Part shown: one piece after another, positions 5,906-11,547 of the stretch
Layout of the letters: each line of letters opens with the position of its first letter
How positions within the stretch are numbered: the first letter of the stretch is position 1
Source: Bacteroidales bacterium
Lineage (GTDB): Bacteria > Bacteroidota > Bacteroidia > Bacteroidales > VadinHA17
Assembly (NCBI GenBank): GCA_029974835.1
Contig: JARKQN010000025.1
Span: 1-48,407, forward strand
Direction: 5' to 3'
Length of the DNA stretch: 48,407 nucleotides
Notes under the pieces: model-generated
What the model was told of the DNA's origin: nothing
What the model saw: the letters and a program-made list of their open reading frames with translations, nothing else
Database searches by the model: none
Program-made: the position numbers and the translations under genes

Positions 5906-6364
5906 ATGAAAGATCTCAGGAATATTTATATTGAAGCCACCTCAAAAACGCCGGAAGTTGATTTTGATTCAATGACCGGGAATCTGATACTTTCAGGAAG
6001 ATCCATTCCTGAGAATGCCACGGAGTTATATGATCCCCTATATAAATGGATAAATCAATACGTCCTTAATCCCTGCCAGGTTACCAATCTTCGTCTGAAC
6101 CTAGAATATTTCAATACAGCTTCGTCAATCTGGATTGCAAAGATTGTAAAAACGCTGAGCCGGATGGACAAACCTGACAATCTCCTTTATATCCATCTCT
6201 ACTTCAATATTGAGGAGTTCGACAACATGGAAACAGAAGATATAAAGGATGCAATCAGCCCCGTGGTTGACATAATAAGTGACGCCACCGTAAGCATAGT
6301 TGTCAAGATCTACGGAACCGACGACAACGGTGAGATTATTAAGGAATCGATGGTACTGATTTAG
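5906..6364 (+). CDS. SiaC-family (DUF1987) regulatory phosphoprotein
   Basis: The 152-residue sequence carries the family hallmarks 'TPEVDFDSMTG', 'GRSIPENATELYDPL' and 'LEYFNTASS'. In the Pseudomonas SiaABCD pathway the STAS-like SiaC is phosphorylated on a Thr in the YFNT motif (here Thr71) by the kinase SiaB and dephosphorylated by the phosphatase SiaA, and the unphosphorylated form activates the diguanylate cyclase SiaD. None of siaA, siaB or siaD is adjacent or elsewhere in the window, so this is an orphan whose kinase and target are unknown. There is no signal peptide, so it should be cytosolic. It lies 77 nt before the MEMO-AMMECR1 gene on the same strand. Family assignment is firm; the role is inferred. 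Confidence 0.85.
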   Translation: MKDLRNIYIEATSKTPEVDFDSMTGNLILSGRSIPENATELYDPLYKWINQYVLNPCQVTNLRLNLEYFNTASSIWIAKIVKTLSRMDKPDNLLYIHLYFNIEEFDNMETEDIKDAISPVVDIISDATVSIVVKIYGTDDNGEIIKESMVLI

Positions 6365-6441: not shown

Positions 6442-7947
6442 ATGCGTTTTGTTTTCTTTTTAACAATTTCACTTTTGATGTCGATGGATACTTTTTCCCA
6501 AAACAGGCCGGTCGACAGGCAGCCATATGCCGCCGGAAGGTTCTATTCTGCAGTAAGTGAATCACTTAAGAATGATCTGTCTCAGTTATTTGCAGGAGCT
6601 GCAAAAGCAGATTTGGCGGGGCTGCAGGTAAGGGCCCTGATAGTTCCTCATGCTGGTTATGTTTTTTCCGGAAAAACAGCTGCCTCTGCATTTTTGACTG
6701 TACCGCCCGATAAAAAATACCGTAATATTTTTATTATCGGATCGAGTCATGTTATGGCATTCGACGGAGCATCTGTGTATTACAGGGGTGATTTTATAAC
6801 ACCACTGGGGAAAATGAAAGTCAATACCGAAGTTGCGGAGGCCCTGAGAAAAGAGCATAATGTTTTCAGGTTTCCCGACAATGCACATACACAGGAACAC
6901 AGCCTTGAGGTACAGGTTCCATTTATTCAGTATTATTTCAGGGAAGCTCAGCAGATAGTTCCCATTATCATCGGTACCAGCAACAGGAATACCATAAAAG
7001 CCATTGCGGAGGCACTCAGACCGTGGTTCACTGATGAGAACCTTTTTATCATAAGCAGCGACTTTTCGCATTACCCCGGATATAAAGAAGCAAAGGAGGT
7101 TGACAACCTGACTGCCGATGCCATTCTGTCGAAGGATCCGGATAAATTTCTCAGGACACTTGCTTCAAATTCCTCAAAGGGAATCGATAATCTTGCAACC
7201 AGCATGTGCGGATGGACATCAGGATTGATGCTTCTGTATCTCGTAAACAATGATCCTTCACTTGAGTTCAGGAAGATCAGTTACTGCAATTCAGGCGACT
7301 CTCCCTACGGTAATAAGGATGAAGTGGTTGGATATCATTCCATTATCCTGACGGAAAAACCGAAGACCGGCGCAGCCCGGAAAGAGGACGAATCACTGGT
7401 GAAATTTACAGAAGAGGAGAAGAAGCAGTTGTTCACTATTGCCAGGAATTCTATTTCCCTGATGCTTAACGAAAAGCGCCGGCAGGTCATTAACCCTGCT
7501 GAAATTCTTCCGGGGCTGAAGAAAAACATGGGGGCTTTCGTCACGCTGAGGCTTAATGGCAAATTAAGGGGATGCATCGGAAGATTTGTCTCCGAGGACC
7601 CGCTTTATGAGGTTGTTAACCATATGGCAGTGGCTTCTGCATTCGATGACACCCGTTTTCTGCCTCTTACAAAGGAAGAGTACAGAAACGTTGAAATTGA
7701 AATATCGGTTATAGGCCCGCTGAAACGGATAAACGATAAAAGCGAAATTGTTTTGGGAAAACACGGCATATACAGTAAGAAAGATTTCAGGTCAGGTACC
7801 ATGCTGCCGCAGGTAGCTGTTGAAAACAAATGGAGTGTTGAAGAATTCCTGGGCTATACGTCGAGGGAAAAAGCAGGCCTTGGCTGGGATGGCTGGAAGA
7901 ATGCTGAATTGTATGTGTATGAAACCGTAGTGCTCGAAGAAAAGTAA
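6442..7947 (+). CDS. AmmeMemoRadiSam B-A fusion (MEMO1-like + AMMECR1), exported
   Basis: A 501-residue fusion of two normally separate proteins. Residues 1-20 form a Sec signal peptide (hydrophobic core, then 'TFSQ'). Residues about 28-305 are a MEMO1/LigB-fold domain with 'VPHAGYVFSG' (His70), 'GSSHV' (His103), 'QEHSLEVQVPF', 'SSDFSHY' (His210) and 'SMCGWTSG' (Cys256), the conserved putative metal ligands of that family. Residues about 325-498 are an AMMECR1 domain with the diagnostic LRGCIG at 375-380. The signal peptide points to a periplasmic location. It heads a close run with the membrane protein 11 nt downstream and the cognate radical SAM enzyme after that. Family assignment is secure; the reaction is unknown to me. 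Confidence 0.92.
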   Translation: MRFVFFLTISLLMSMDTFSQNRPVDRQPYAAGRFYSAVSESLKNDLSQLFAGAAKADLAGLQVRALIVPHAGYVFSGKTAASAFLTVPPDKKYRNIFIIGSSHVMAFDGASVYYRGDFITPLGKMKVNTEVAEALRKEHNVFRFPDNAHTQEHSLEVQVPFIQYYFREAQQIVPIIIGTSNRNTIKAIAEALRPWFTDENLFIISSDFSHYPGYKEAKEVDNLTADAILSKDPDKFLRTLASNSSKGIDNLATSMCGWTSGLMLLYLVNNDPSLEFRKISYCNSGDSPYGNKDEVVGYHSIILTEKPKTGAARKEDESLVKFTEEEKKQLFTIARNSISLMLNEKRRQVINPAEILPGLKKNMGAFVTLRLNGKLRGCIGRFVSEDPLYEVVNHMAVASAFDDTRFLPLTKEEYRNVEIEISVIGPLKRINDKSEIVLGKHGIYSKKDFRSGTMLPQVAVENKWSVEEFLGYTSREKAGLGWDGWKNAELYVYETVVLEEK

Positions 7948-7958
7948 CAGCAATCCGC

Positions 7959-10388
7959 ATGTACCATGTAGTCGGCACAGGCATCACAATAACAATTCTG
8001 TATCTGGTCTTTTTTCTGTTTCAGAAAGTCAGTATCCTTTCTGCAAGTGATAACAGGAAGATATGGAACCTGATTCTCATGCTGACTTTCCTGATTACCG
8101 GAGTTGCAGGCATTATTCTTGCGATCAGGGTAAATTATAAGCTCAAAGGTGATTTTTTTGATCAGCTGCTCAGGTGGCATGTTGAAACCGGGGTTGCATT
8201 CTCATTCACCGGTATCATACACCTTTTACGTCATCTGTCTTATTTCAGGAACCTCTTTGGGGAGTTACAACCAGGGATCAGGTCAGATCCGGAACTATCC
8301 GCACCGGAAAGTGCGGTTTCATCGGGTACCAACCTGTTCCTTCTTGGTTTCGTAAGCACATCTGTCCAGTTACTCCTGCTCAGGGAGATAATAAACATTA
8401 CGGGAGGCTATGAACTCATTGCAGGCACATATCTCGCAGCCTGGCTCATAAATTCCGCCGCGGGTTCATTCTTTGCCGGAAGAACCGGAAAAGTAAATAT
8501 CAGAAGTCTGAATATAATTTTTGCCCTTGCCCCGCTCCTCTCGGTTGCGCTGATGATATTGTCAGGCAGGCTGTTTCTTCATGCAGGCGAGACACCTTCC
8601 TTCCTTGAAAGCATACTGATAACCACAGTCGTTTTGCTGCCGGTATGTTTTATGTCGGGATTTTTATTTATTAAACTGCTTGAAACGGCCGCCGCAAAAG
8701 GTTTCCGCAGCAGCGGCAGATCATTTTCAATAGAAACAGCCGGCGGAATTTTTTCGGGGCTGGCCGTAACATTCCTTTCGTCGGGTGTGTTTGATACATA
8801 CCAGATATTGTCTGCAGTTTTGTTTCTGTTTGCCATTTTCCTTTCGGTATCCTTCATCTCTTCAGGAAGATGGTTTAAACCTCCGCTGATTTTTCTCTGG
8901 ACACTTCTGCTTTTGTTTACCCTCTGGTTTTCGCCTTCAGTTTTTGTCCGGCAGGTGATGCTCCCGGGCATAAAAGTTACAGGTACAACTGATTCGCCTT
9001 ATGGTAACGTAACCACTGGCGAATATCGCGGAGAAAACTTCGTATACTATAATCAAAGACTGGCTCGCTGGTCGTACGATGAAACAGAGCGTGAGGAAAG
9101 TGTCCATTATACTATGCTGCAACACAGTGATCCGAAACGGATCCTGGTCATTTCGGGGGATATCAGGTCGCTCTTTCCTGAATTGATGAAGTACCATCCC
9201 GAAAGGATTGTTTTTGTAGAACGGGATCCCGAACTTCTTAAGATTGTTAAAAAGGAGATGGAGTATAAAACAAACCTGATATTAATTGAAGACGATGTTT
9301 TCAGGTATTTAAGAAAAACAGAAGATGTATTTGATATTGTCATCATGAATATGCCTCCCCCCTCCTCTCTCCAGATCAACAGGTATTACACCGAAGACTT
9401 CTTCAGACTTGTTCATTCAAGACTCGACACGGCAGGTGTATTCACATGTTCCCCGGGGGTTTTTGAAAACTATTTCAACGACCAGTCGGCAAATCTGTAT
9501 TCAATCATTTTCAACACCTTAAACAAGGTATTCAGAAATATCGTCCCCATTGGCGGTAACAGGCTTTACCTGATAGCTTCAGATGGCAGACTTCAAACAG
9601 GTATCTGCTCCCTGTATGAAAAAAGTGGAATCCGGAATGTATATGTGAACTGTGATTATCTTGACGATGAGCTGATAAGAATGAAATCTCTTGAGATACA
9701 GGATCTTCTCAGGAAGGAAACCAGAATAAACTCACTTTCCGGTCCTCTGGCGACTTATTTCTTCCAGGCATACCACCTCACAAGGACACCGGGACGGACA
9801 GTCCCGGCCCTCATTCTGCTGGCCATCTTATTTGTATTACCCTCATTAACAGTATCATCCAGGAATTTCCCAATGTATGCTGCCGCAGCATCTCTCGCCG
9901 GCTTTGAGATTTATGCCCTGTTAACCATCCAGTCGGTAATGGGTAACATATATCATCTTACAGGACTTGTTATTTCGGCTGTTATGGCGGGTCTCGCAGC
10001 AGGTTCGGGTATAAAATTCATGGACAGGAAGGAAGGTATGGTTAAGGCGTATCTGATAATAATGGCTTCTTTTTACATAGTGGTATTTTTCATCAATGAT
10101 CATCTGCCTTCAATTGAATCCGGCGCATTATTTACCGGTATAATATTGCTTCTCAGCTTTATCCCGTCATTCCTTGCAGGCAGCCTTTTCAGGATTCTGT
10201 CGGCAGAGAGAGACAGCAAAATAACCGCATCCGGTGTTTACGGATCTGACCTCACTGGTTCGGCTCTGGGTTTTATTGCCGTTTCAGCCCTTCTTCTGCC
10301 GCTGGCAGGAAGCGGAACAACTCTGTTGACTTTTGCAGGAATTACCTTAACAGCCTTTATATTTGCAGTAGTGAGAAGTAAGAGTTAA
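7959..10388 (+). CDS. Polytopic membrane protein with degenerate spermidine-synthase-like domain
   Basis: An 809-residue protein in four parts. Residues 1-95 hold about three membrane helices with a Trp-His..Gly..His..His pattern (His74, His88, His92) like heme-binding DUF4405/cytochrome-b-type bundles. Residues about 122-325 are roughly seven helices of the kind fused to large bacterial spermidine synthases. Residues about 340-560 are a Rossmann methyltransferase-fold domain with 'VISGDIRSL' in place of the Gly-rich loop, acidic 'VERDPELL', and 'NMPPPSSLQINRYYTEDFF' where true synthases have the catalytic D-x-x-D-P gate. Residues about 620-809 are further helices. Loss of the catalytic Asp argues against aminopropyl transfer. 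Its position between the MEMO-AMMECR1 fusion (11 nt) and the radical SAM gene (40 nt) suggests a partner role in the same membrane system. Confidence 0.8.
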   Translation: MYHVVGTGITITILYLVFFLFQKVSILSASDNRKIWNLILMLTFLITGVAGIILAIRVNYKLKGDFFDQLLRWHVETGVAFSFTGIIHLLRHLSYFRNLFGELQPGIRSDPELSAPESAVSSGTNLFLLGFVSTSVQLLLLREIINITGGYELIAGTYLAAWLINSAAGSFFAGRTGKVNIRSLNIIFALAPLLSVALMILSGRLFLHAGETPSFLESILITTVVLLPVCFMSGFLFIKLLETAAAKGFRSSGRSFSIETAGGIFSGLAVTFLSSGVFDTYQILSAVLFLFAIFLSVSFISSGRWFKPPLIFLWTLLLLFTLWFSPSVFVRQVMLPGIKVTGTTDSPYGNVTTGEYRGENFVYYNQRLARWSYDETEREESVHYTMLQHSDPKRILVISGDIRSLFPELMKYHPERIVFVERDPELLKIVKKEMEYKTNLILIEDDVFRYLRKTEDVFDIVIMNMPPPSSLQINRYYTEDFFRLVHSRLDTAGVFTCSPGVFENYFNDQSANLYSIIFNTLNKVFRNIVPIGGNRLYLIASDGRLQTGICSLYEKSGIRNVYVNCDYLDDELIRMKSLEIQDLLRKETRINSLSGPLATYFFQAYHLTRTPGRTVPALILLAILFVLPSLTVSSRNFPMYAAAASLAGFEIYALLTIQSVMGNIYHLTGLVISAVMAGLAAGSGIKFMDRKEGMVKAYLIIMASFYIVVFFINDHLPSIESGALFTGIILLLSFIPSFLAGSLFRILSAERDSKITASGVYGSDLTGSALGFIAVSALLLPLAGSGTTLLTFAGITLTAFIFAVVRSKS

Positions 10389-10428
10389 TTTTAGGTCAAA
10401 GGAGCCAAAGGTACCAGACTGATGCAGG

Positions 10429-11547
10429 ATGAAAATGAAAAAGAGGGAATTTATAAGGAAATGTTTTCTGGCTTCAGGGTGTATTATGCTCCCTGATTAT
10501 CTGCCAGGGGCAGAGGCTTATTCAGACCAGAAAGACACAGGACTTAAAGAGGCCATGTTTCAGGAAGAAACACCAAGGGGCATCATGTGCAGGATATGCC
10601 CGAACGAGTGTGTTCTGAAAGAAGGTGAACTAAGTCAGTGCCATAACCGTAAAGTAGTCAAATCGAAGCTGAGGACACTTGCATACGGCAATCCCTGCTC
10701 GGTTAATATTGATCCGATAGAAAAGAAACCCCTTTATCATTTTTTCCCGGGATCAAAGGCATATTCAATTGCAACGGCCGGATGTAACCTGGCTTGTCTT
10801 AATTGCCAGAACTGGTCGATATCACAGACATCTCCCGACAAAACCAGAAATTACAGTTTTTCACCCGACAAAGTGGTTGAAGAGAGCATCAGGACAAACT
10901 GCAAATCGATAGCATACACCTATTCGGAGCCGGTAACATTTTATGAATATGCCTGGGATACTGCCAGGCTGGCAAGGTCGGCTGGAATTAAAAATATCTT
11001 TAAATCGAACGGATATATAAACCGCGAGCCTCTTGAAAAGATATGCGGAGTTCTTGATGCGGCCAATATCGACCTCAAATCTTTTAACGACACAACATAT
11101 CTCAGGCTTTCGGGCGGCAAACTGCAACCGGTACTTGAGTCTCTTAAGGTGTACAGGGATAAAGGTGTGTGGCTTGAAATAACCAACCTTATTGTACCCT
11201 CATGGACCGACAAATACGAAGAAATTAAGGCTATGTGCAACTGGCTTGTTAAGAATGGTTTTTCGGAAAATCCATTGCATTTCAGCAGGTTCTATCCTGT
11301 TTACAGGCTCGAACAACTCCCTCCCACCCCGCTTGAAACGCTTACCACGGCGGCAAAGATTGCAACTGATGAGGGGATGAAATATGTATATGTGGGAAAT
11401 GTACCCGGAAATGAGATGGCTGACACTAAGTGTCCGCACTGCGGAACCGTAATTATTAAAAGAACCGGGTACAGGATTGATTTCAACAGGACTAAGGACG
11501 GGAAATGTTTGACATGCAACAGGCCGGTTGCAGGAGTGTGGCAGTAA
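10429..11547 (+). CDS. amrS: AmmeMemoRadiSam system radical SAM enzyme, Tat-like leader
   Basis: A 372-residue radical SAM protein. The CX3CX2C iron-sulfur motif is Cys119, Cys123, Cys126 in 'GCNLACLNCQNW'. An N-terminal Cys set (54, 57, 61, 71: 'CRICPNEC...C') and a C-terminal CX2C...CX2C set (335/338, 360/363) match the AmmeMemoRadiSam radical SAM family. Residues 1-30 begin 'KKREFIRKCFLASG', a twin-basic, Tat-like leader followed by a hydrophobic stretch and 'GAEAYS', which suggests export of a folded Fe-S enzyme. It follows the MEMO-AMMECR1 fusion and the membrane protein and lies 22 nt before ligA. ATG 10429 or the in-frame ATG 10435 could be the start. Family firm; substrate unknown; export inferred. 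Confidence 0.9.
   Translation: MKMKKREFIRKCFLASGCIMLPDYLPGAEAYSDQKDTGLKEAMFQEETPRGIMCRICPNECVLKEGELSQCHNRKVVKSKLRTLAYGNPCSVNIDPIEKKPLYHFFPGSKAYSIATAGCNLACLNCQNWSISQTSPDKTRNYSFSPDKVVEESIRTNCKSIAYTYSEPVTFYEYAWDTARLARSAGIKNIFKSNGYINREPLEKICGVLDAANIDLKSFNDTTYLRLSGGKLQPVLESLKVYRDKGVWLEITNLIVPSWTDKYEEIKAMCNWLVKNGFSENPLHFSRFYPVYRLEQLPPTPLETLTTAAKIATDEGMKYVYVGNVPGNEMADTKCPHCGTVIIKRTGYRIDFNRTKDGKCLTCNRPVAGVWQ

Follow-up and report, generated by a model that had tools for sequence, protein, structure and literature searches.

A predicted periplasm-facing AmmeMemoRadiSam variant with a carrier-like, spermidine-synthase-like membrane partner in Bacteroidales

We analysed a 48,407-nucleotide stretch of DNA from a Bacteroidales bacterium of the VadinHA17 lineage (assembly GCA_029974835.1, contig JARKQN010000025.1, positions 1 to 48,407), referred to below in its entirety as the window. 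Three consecutive + strand genes encode a Memo-AMMECR1 fusion (6442-7947, 501 aa), a polytopic membrane protein (7959-10388, 809 aa) and a radical S-adenosylmethionine (SAM) enzyme (10429-11547, 372 aa), with gaps of 11 nt between fusion and polytopic genes and 40 nt between polytopic and radical SAM genes. An initial annotation had described this order, strand, spacing and position from the sequence alone, and all of it was borne out. Its assignment of the cluster to AmmeMemoRadiSam likewise held, since Pfam Memo and AMMECR1 domains occur in one protein and all three NCBIfam families were matched above their curated cut-offs (TIGR04336, E 5.6e-68; TIGR04335, E 4.6e-44; TIGR04337, E 4.9e-106). 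Memo (B), AMMECR1 (A) and a TIGR04337 radical SAM enzyme are thus encoded side by side, as expected of members of this system, and NCBIfam classes the three families as hypothetical equivalogs.

No common AmmeMemoRadiSam reaction was found in the literature searched. Burroughs et al. reportedly linked Memo to base and isoprenoid modification in 2019. Memo-Ammecr1 systems, with their radical SAM domain, are mentioned in PMC7159879, and a passage of PMC10924467 names a radical SAM gene. The features of the three window genes are as follows.

6442-6501, + strand: Sec-type leader of the Memo-AMMECR1 fusion (about residues 1-20), called from its hydrophobic stretch
6523-7344, + strand: Memo domain, residues 28-301, with putative metal ligands H70, H103 and C256 (PF01875, E 4.4e-55)
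7435-7929, + strand: AMMECR1 domain, residues 332-496, with invariant C378 (PF01871, E 1.4e-45)
7959-8249, + strand: three-helix module of the polytopic protein, residues 1-97, with H74 and H88 (H-x13-H) and H92; tentatively b-type-cytochrome-like, from histidine conservation and weak heme-b Pfam matches
8322-8852, + strand: first half resembling the major facilitator superfamily (MFS), six helices, residues 122-298 (AlphaFold2 helices; internal repeat by hhalign)
8937-9728, + strand: spermidine-synthase-like (SpeE-like) domain, residues 327-590, predicted periplasmic, catalytic acids lost (PF01564; Foldseek 1uir, E 4.1e-11)
9858-10382, + strand: second MFS-like six-helix half, residues 634-808 (AlphaFold2 of residues 605-809 alone; Foldseek mostly MFS carriers, E 0.02-0.17)
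10429-10548, + strand: leader of the radical SAM enzyme resembling those of the twin-arginine translocation (Tat) pathway, residues 1-40, with K5-R6-E7-F8; R6 and F8 in 58 of 58 aligned enzymes, Lys or Arg at position 5 in 58 of 58
10549-11547, + strand: radical SAM body (TIGR04337), with C119xxxC123xxC126 at 10783-10806
Within the body, + strand: invariant Cys quartets 54/57/61/71 and 335/338/360/363

N-terminal leaders of the fusion and the radical SAM enzyme

Homologous loci were chosen by their match to the polytopic or the radical SAM protein and are not a random sample; the named loci are the best 80 of 170 stretches encoding a relative in a scan of named genomes. The named and unnamed sets share 40 identical polytopic and 39 identical radical SAM frames, and "distinct" below means that identical frames only were removed. 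In one further locus (L235) the window queries matched nothing at E 1e-4.

A hydrophobic leader was present in 85 of the 86 classifiable Memo-AMMECR1 fusions at a hydrophobicity threshold of 1.8, with five more unclassified by the motif of the script and two edge cases; the single exception (L188) scored 1.78. A lipobox-like cysteine was found in 10 fusions by a loose pattern and in 7 of 89 by another, and by inspection all four fusions of the distant loci L226-L229 carry a cysteine after the hydrophobic stretch. The window genome, which is 92% complete, encodes a single Memo and a single AMMECR1, both in this fusion. As controls, a separate Memo adjoining a leaderless radical SAM gene (L047) has no leader, nor does Memo in two loci (L241, L242) where Memo and AMMECR1 are separate genes and the genomes lack the polytopic protein (the AMMECR1 start of L241 is unclear). 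Many family genomes also hold a second, weaker Memo-type match in an open reading frame of mostly about 360-400 aa, among the matches listed.

The putative metal ligands are conserved throughout the fusions (H70 and C256 in 91 of 91, H103 in 90 of 91), as is the AMMECR1 cysteine C378 (91 of 91). H70 and H103 align with the iron ligands H49 and H81 of human MEMO1, a protein with an extradiol-dioxygenase-like fold; C256 was equated with C244 by motif and order only, the printed alignment stopping before C256. The window protein differs from MEMO1 in its leader and in its fusion to AMMECR1. Human MEMO1 is described as binding iron through H49, H81 and C244 in the portion of PMC11081632 available, and because the window Memo keeps these residues, an iron-dependent step outside the cytosol is plausible.

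The radical SAM leader was evaluated on 118 distinct frames. An N-terminal extension bearing (K/R)RxF is present in 101 of them, one extension lacks the motif (L036), and 12 are leaderless paralogues; the others are two pieces beside assembly gaps (L103, L150) and two motif-bearing frames set aside (L062, at a contig edge, and the other piece of L103). The motif therefore occurs in 101 of 102 assessable extended enzymes. The leadered alignment (58 rows) comprises the window enzyme and 57 non-redundant enzymes of 360-400 aa, and in it position 5 is Lys in 46 and Arg in 12, position 10 is Lys or Arg in 57, and residue 43, a candidate inner start, is Met in 44. The ratio of nonsynonymous to synonymous polymorphism (pN/pS) is 0.36 in the leader, a coding-type pattern, against 0.11 in the body, from 30 close and non-independent pairs. 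Eleven cysteines are invariant across the 58 enzymes, among them the CxxxCxxC motif of radical SAM enzymes (C119, C123, C126), as are many other residues of the family.

The window genome encodes two TIGR04337 enzymes scoring over 340 bits, the leadered one described here and a leaderless 334-aa paralogue on another contig. In a tree of 58 leadered, 17 leaderless and three further enzymes (the L227 fragment was omitted), 61 leadered enzymes fall on one side of a branch and the 17 leaderless ones on the other, with support of 96/55; without the long-branched L229, 60 leadered enzymes are separated with support of 100/99. The leaderless set consists of the 12 paralogues and five of seven further loci (L019 and L022, whose frames are over-long or wrong, were omitted). 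TatC is encoded in the window genome and in 110 of 117 family genomes, and 28 of 33 TIGR01409 matches in the window genome exceed the cut-off, among the matches listed.

The radical SAM leader looks genuine, because (K/R)RxF is near-universal, its Arg and Phe are invariant, its substitutions are of coding type and a leaderless paralogue exists in the same genome. A mis-called start is not favoured given this invariance and substitution pattern. A search for same-order orthologues without leaders, which would have spoken for cytosolic proteins, yielded no clear counter-example: the extension of L036 lacks the motif, and in L103 and L150 the leader is hidden by assembly gaps.

Architecture of the polytopic protein

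The polytopic alignment (55 rows) contains the window protein and 54 of 75 complete homologues, at less than 72% identity. AlphaFold2 modelled the window protein from these 55 sequences with a predicted local distance difference test score (pLDDT) of 88.3 and a predicted template-modelling score (pTM) of 0.88, in the order three N-terminal helices, six helices, a linking helix, the SpeE-like domain, a second linking helix and six helices. The two six-helix blocks are repeats of one another (hhalign probability 95.7%, E 1e-8; at most 1.0% in five column shuffles and one reversal), so that the model and the repeat together give the two parallel six-helix repeats characteristic of the MFS. The best 50 of 64 whole-model Foldseek matches at E 0.001 were all spermidine, thermospermine or spermine synthases, and we therefore folded the second half alone (pLDDT 89.4). 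Its best match had E 0.02 and a template-modelling score of about 0.5, and its best 50 were mostly MFS carriers, with other or unclear entries (7ydq, 9d7x, 6oom) also in the list.

Lys and Arg were counted with sides taken from the helix order and the SpeE-like domain itself excluded. The domain side averages 5.3 and the opposite side 24.1 (6 and 24 in the window protein), and the excess has this direction in 55 of 55 homologues. By the positive-inside rule, this excess places the SpeE-like domain, as a prediction, in the periplasm between the two MFS-like halves. In two loci (L157, L158) the polytopic gene reads as two overlapping frames, perhaps through assembly errors or real breaks.

The initial annotation had left the SpeE-like domain unnamed. 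Pfam Spermine_synth (PF01564) matches residues 379-498 at E 1.3e-13, and the solved relatives of the domain are spermidine and related synthases; the NCBIfam models PRK03612 (E 2.4e-19) and speE (E 7.3e-12) score far under their cut-offs. E421 and D446 are invariant in 55 of 55 homologues and align with the acids of spermidine synthases that we take to bind the nucleoside. The catalytic positions, set by alignment to the Thermus enzyme, have been lost. The first Asp of DxxDP is absent in all 55 (Leu 39, Asn 12, Ile 2, Ala 1, Ser 1), the second position is mostly Pro (Pro 45, Glu 6, Asp 2, Ala 1, Gln 1), and the acid aligned with that of GGGDG is replaced in all 55 (Leu 30, Ile 12, Pro 6, Ala 3 and one each of Val, Thr, Met and Tyr). 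No homologue therefore has the complete acid pair of DxxDP or the GGGDG acid by which a spermidine synthase is recognised. Among the distant loci, the second Asp is kept in L226 and is Glu in L228 and L229. Five generic seven-transmembrane (7TM) SpeE relatives (L230-L234) retain D-x-P-D-P in five of five, and the GGGDG-type loop was printed for four of them. These proteins, from other Bacteroidota, are about 510 aa long and carry their aminopropyltransferase-type domain bound to the membrane.

As the aminopropyltransferase acids are lost and the nucleoside-binding acids kept, the domain most likely binds SAM or its products, and a SAM-type binder or methyltransferase is more likely on these residues than an aminopropyltransferase. 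The closest described membrane proteins of this kind, PRK03612 and MFS_SpdSyn (NF037959), share the succession of a helix block and a SpeE fold. Unlike them, the window protein has lost the catalytic acids, has a second six-helix half after the domain and an extra three-helix module, and scores far under the curated cut-offs.

Alignment of the N-terminal module covered those 43 of the 55 homologues that have 110 residues or more in this region. H74 and H88, which lie on one helix, are present in 43 of 43, H92 in 41 and H32 in 40, the window protein having Asn at position 32. Weak Pfam matches (E 0.1 or better) among the 43 were to DUF4405 (14), Ferric_reduct (11), Ni_hydr_CYTB (6) and Cytochrom_B561 (2), presumably members of one heme-b clan; the same scan also gave COX7B in 7 of 43 and other unrelated families. 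The window module falls under the Pfam cut-off; for Cytochrom_B561, whose cut-off is 23, the L174 module scores 23.0 bits. A longer control half, aligned for 41 of 55 rows (the last 14 on the list omitted), gave no match to any of the four families. A profile search for the module as a separate gene in the loci returned short frames only in L149, L154, L157, L158 and L240, all of them split or contig-cut polytopic genes. We regard a heme-b-type module as a lead suggested by these sequence matches. A heme module as a universal part of the polytopic protein was rejected, as it is present in 43 of 55 only.

Distribution, gene neighbourhood and co-loss

The polytopic protein is encoded in 103 of 117 genomes of its own family (12 of 15 genera). 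Across Bacteroidota it was found at full length in 5 of 198 evenly drawn genomes, including its own, and 15 more of the 198 had only shorter, weaker SpeE-type matches. The best 80 of 170 named stretches bear mostly Bacteroidales or Bacteroidota titles, with one Ignavibacteriales (L187) and one Chlorobiota (L191). A radical SAM gene follows the polytopic gene in 71 of these 80, and eight of the nine loci without the enzyme end at most 420 bases from a contig end. The fusion is present in 70 of 80 and divergent in four (L186, L188, L189, L191). Eight of the ten loci without it begin about 500 bases or less from the polytopic gene, and two have 1.3 kb (L179) and 5 kb (L180) upstream without a fusion. 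With 103 of 117 family genomes and 71 of 80 loci, the three-gene arrangement pointed out by the initial annotation goes beyond chance. All three genes also occur in the four distant loci, the L227 enzyme being cut by the contig start. Two loci have an oppositely oriented gene between the polytopic gene and the radical SAM gene (L136, 7536-9932; L138, 7473-9869); its 798-aa product has about eight predicted helices.

Among the 14 family genomes that lack the polytopic protein, two have a leadered-type enzyme, both at assembly breaks: in G005 it lies beside a polytopic fragment at a contig end, and in G098 the enzyme starts at a contig end. Seven encode leaderless enzymes only (G115, G004, G086, G009, G038, G105, G026), one is unclear (G090), and four (G085, G021, G027, G028) gave no TIGR04337 enzyme at 1e-30. 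The leadered Memo-AMMECR1 fusion is kept in G021, G086, G038 and G009, where the polytopic protein and the leadered enzyme are both absent. In two of these (L236 from G021 and L237 from G086) the neighbours are as in the window, with ligA directly after the fusion and the polytopic and radical SAM genes missing from between them. The pattern of co-loss and retained fusions indicates that the polytopic protein and the leadered enzyme are present or missing together, and that the leadered fusion can remain. Given this pairing, the polytopic protein would be the natural supplier of what an exported enzyme lacks, namely SAM and perhaps electrons, a role in line with its fold.

A periplasm-facing reading and its alternatives

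With moderate confidence, drawn from sequences and models, we favour a periplasm-facing variant of AmmeMemoRadiSam in which the MFS/SpeE-like protein would supply or use SAM. Export of the system components is well supported computationally. The initial annotation's placement of the system at or outside the membrane gains support from the leaders on both enzymes, the lipoprotein-type Memo leaders of some lineages, the predicted periplasmic position of the SpeE-like domain and the leaderless paralogues as a control. The window system shares with AmmeMemoRadiSam at large its three families over cut-off, the Memo ligands, the AMMECR1 cysteine and the radical SAM cysteines. It differs in having leaders on both enzymes, a fused Memo-AMMECR1, a constant MFS/SpeE-like partner and a leaderless TIGR04337 paralogue elsewhere in the genome.

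Computation gives the leaders, the topology, the residue losses and the co-occurrence, and from these we infer a Tat route, SAM binding and transport, electron transfer, an order of steps and a substrate. The fusion would be exported by Sec, as a lipoprotein in some lineages, and the radical SAM enzyme would leave folded, probably via Tat and with the iron-sulfur cluster already assembled. The polytopic protein would be an MFS-like carrier, with its SpeE-like domain in the periplasm between the halves, its cargo most likely being SAM or its spent forms. The domain would either hand SAM to the exported radical enzyme or use it as methyl donor. In most relatives, including this one, electrons may reach the system from the quinone pool through the three-helix H-x13-H module, and the substrate may be a protein or lipid of the envelope. 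A complete radical SAM pathway outside the cytosol, combining a Tat-exported enzyme, a Sec-exported Memo-AMMECR1 iron protein, SAM from a dedicated MFS carrier with a periplasmic SAM-binding domain and electrons from the carrier's own membrane heme module to modify an envelope protein or lipid, is a tentative extension that we consider doubtful. The initial annotation had listed anchor, electron donor and substrate supplier as roles for the extra protein; the predicted SpeE-like domain, MFS-like halves and H-x13-H motif suggest SAM handling and perhaps electron supply as candidate roles.

Several observations weigh against the periplasm-facing reading. The leader motif is K-R in 84 of 101 enzymes, the window's K-R-x-F among them, and R-R in only 17; TIGR01409 matched 3 of 10 radical SAM leaders, all under its cut-off, and missed that of the window. 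The six readable Tat-type leaders of the window genome (12 loci were taken, of which five gave no row and one had no leader) are all R-R. The initial annotation's term "Tat-like" has to be read with the K-R majority and the missed window leader in mind. Twelve of 55 polytopic homologues lack the H-x13-H module or have it truncated; the family matches of the module are weak, and no convincing relative was found in the PDB (best E 0.086). The second MFS-like half had no Foldseek match at E 0.001. One locus (L192) carries the polytopic gene and 4979 bases without a radical SAM enzyme, and gene order differs in L228 and L229. Heme b is usually too positive for SAM cleavage, and we know of no periplasmic SAM pool or periplasmic donor of low enough potential.

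A possible, though on balance unlikely, alternative is that the polytopic protein is chiefly a periplasmic methyltransferase that modifies an exported protein or lipid together with Memo and the radical SAM enzyme, its membrane part admitting SAM or serving as an anchor; this overlaps with the methyl-donor branch of the periplasm-facing reading. The analogy is with the fungal N-terminal histidine methyltransferase NHMT, a 7TM protein that, in the portion of PMC10349129 available, has a multi-helix membrane part and a SpeE-like domain without the GxG(D/E)G acid, resides in the endoplasmic reticulum and acts on secreted proteins. Its authors took Ile at the loop acid to exclude a spermidine synthase (PMC10349129, same portion), and the homologues here have Leu, Ile, Pro, Ala, Val, Thr, Met or Tyr at that position. 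The SpeE fold and the kept nucleoside acids also speak for this alternative. NHMT, compared by description and not by sequence, is however fungal and has one 7TM block, placed before the domain, with no radical SAM or Memo partner described in that portion, whereas the polytopic protein has MFS-like halves on both sides and is tied to the radical SAM enzyme by co-loss.

It is improbable that the leader is mis-called or non-working, so that the radical SAM enzyme starts near M43 and stays in the cytosol with only Memo-AMMECR1 outside. The prevalence of K-R over R-R, the Met at residue 43 and the failure of TIGR01409 on the window leader would fit such an enzyme. The invariant R6 and F8, the coding-type substitution in the leader, the single clade of leadered enzymes, the 14 of 58 that lack Met43, the predicted periplasmic domain of the partner and the co-loss all speak against it.

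Quite improbable, too, is an exported radical SAM protein without SAM chemistry that serves a membrane redox complex, shared with Memo and the H-x13-H module, as its iron-sulfur subunit. Such a role would dispense with periplasmic SAM, of which we know none, and would give the H-x13-H module a place. The iron binding reported for MEMO1 in the available portion of PMC11081632 would suit it as well. It would leave the 11 cysteines and many family residues invariant in 58 enzymes, and the SAM-type fold of the partner, without an explanation. A polyamine synthase or exporter neighbouring the AmmeMemoRadiSam genes by chance is highly unlikely and not favoured: the PRK03612 and speE matches and the MFS-like halves are in its favour, but both the first catalytic Asp and the GGGDG acid are gone from 55 of 55 homologues, the second DxxDP position is acidic in 8 of 55, and the five generic relatives keep DxPDP.

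Since SAM and low-potential electrons are found in the cytosol, radical SAM enzymes are regarded as cytosolic. The literature searched on radical SAM with Tat or periplasm (titles and abstract openings) gave no account of an exported radical SAM enzyme, and the portions available of the literature searched on AmmeMemoRadiSam, AMMECR1 and MEMO1 gave none of exported forms of the system. A conserved exported radical SAM enzyme, kept and lost together with one membrane protein whose SAM-type fold lies in the periplasm, would imply that certain bacteria take SAM chemistry to their envelope. The unsolved function of Memo and AMMECR1 would gain a testable setting: with the polytopic partner, the question becomes one of SAM supply or methylation at the membrane, and the natural deletions show the mutual dependence of the cluster parts.

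One neighbouring gene is also part of the run in the window. It lies 77 nt upstream of the Memo gene:

5906-6364, + strand: SiaC-like protein (PF09345, E 5.2e-24)

Its match to the NCBIfam SiaC equivalog is far under the cut-off (58 against 150 bits). The gene occurs in the run in the window's genus and in several other genera as well, though not in all relatives.

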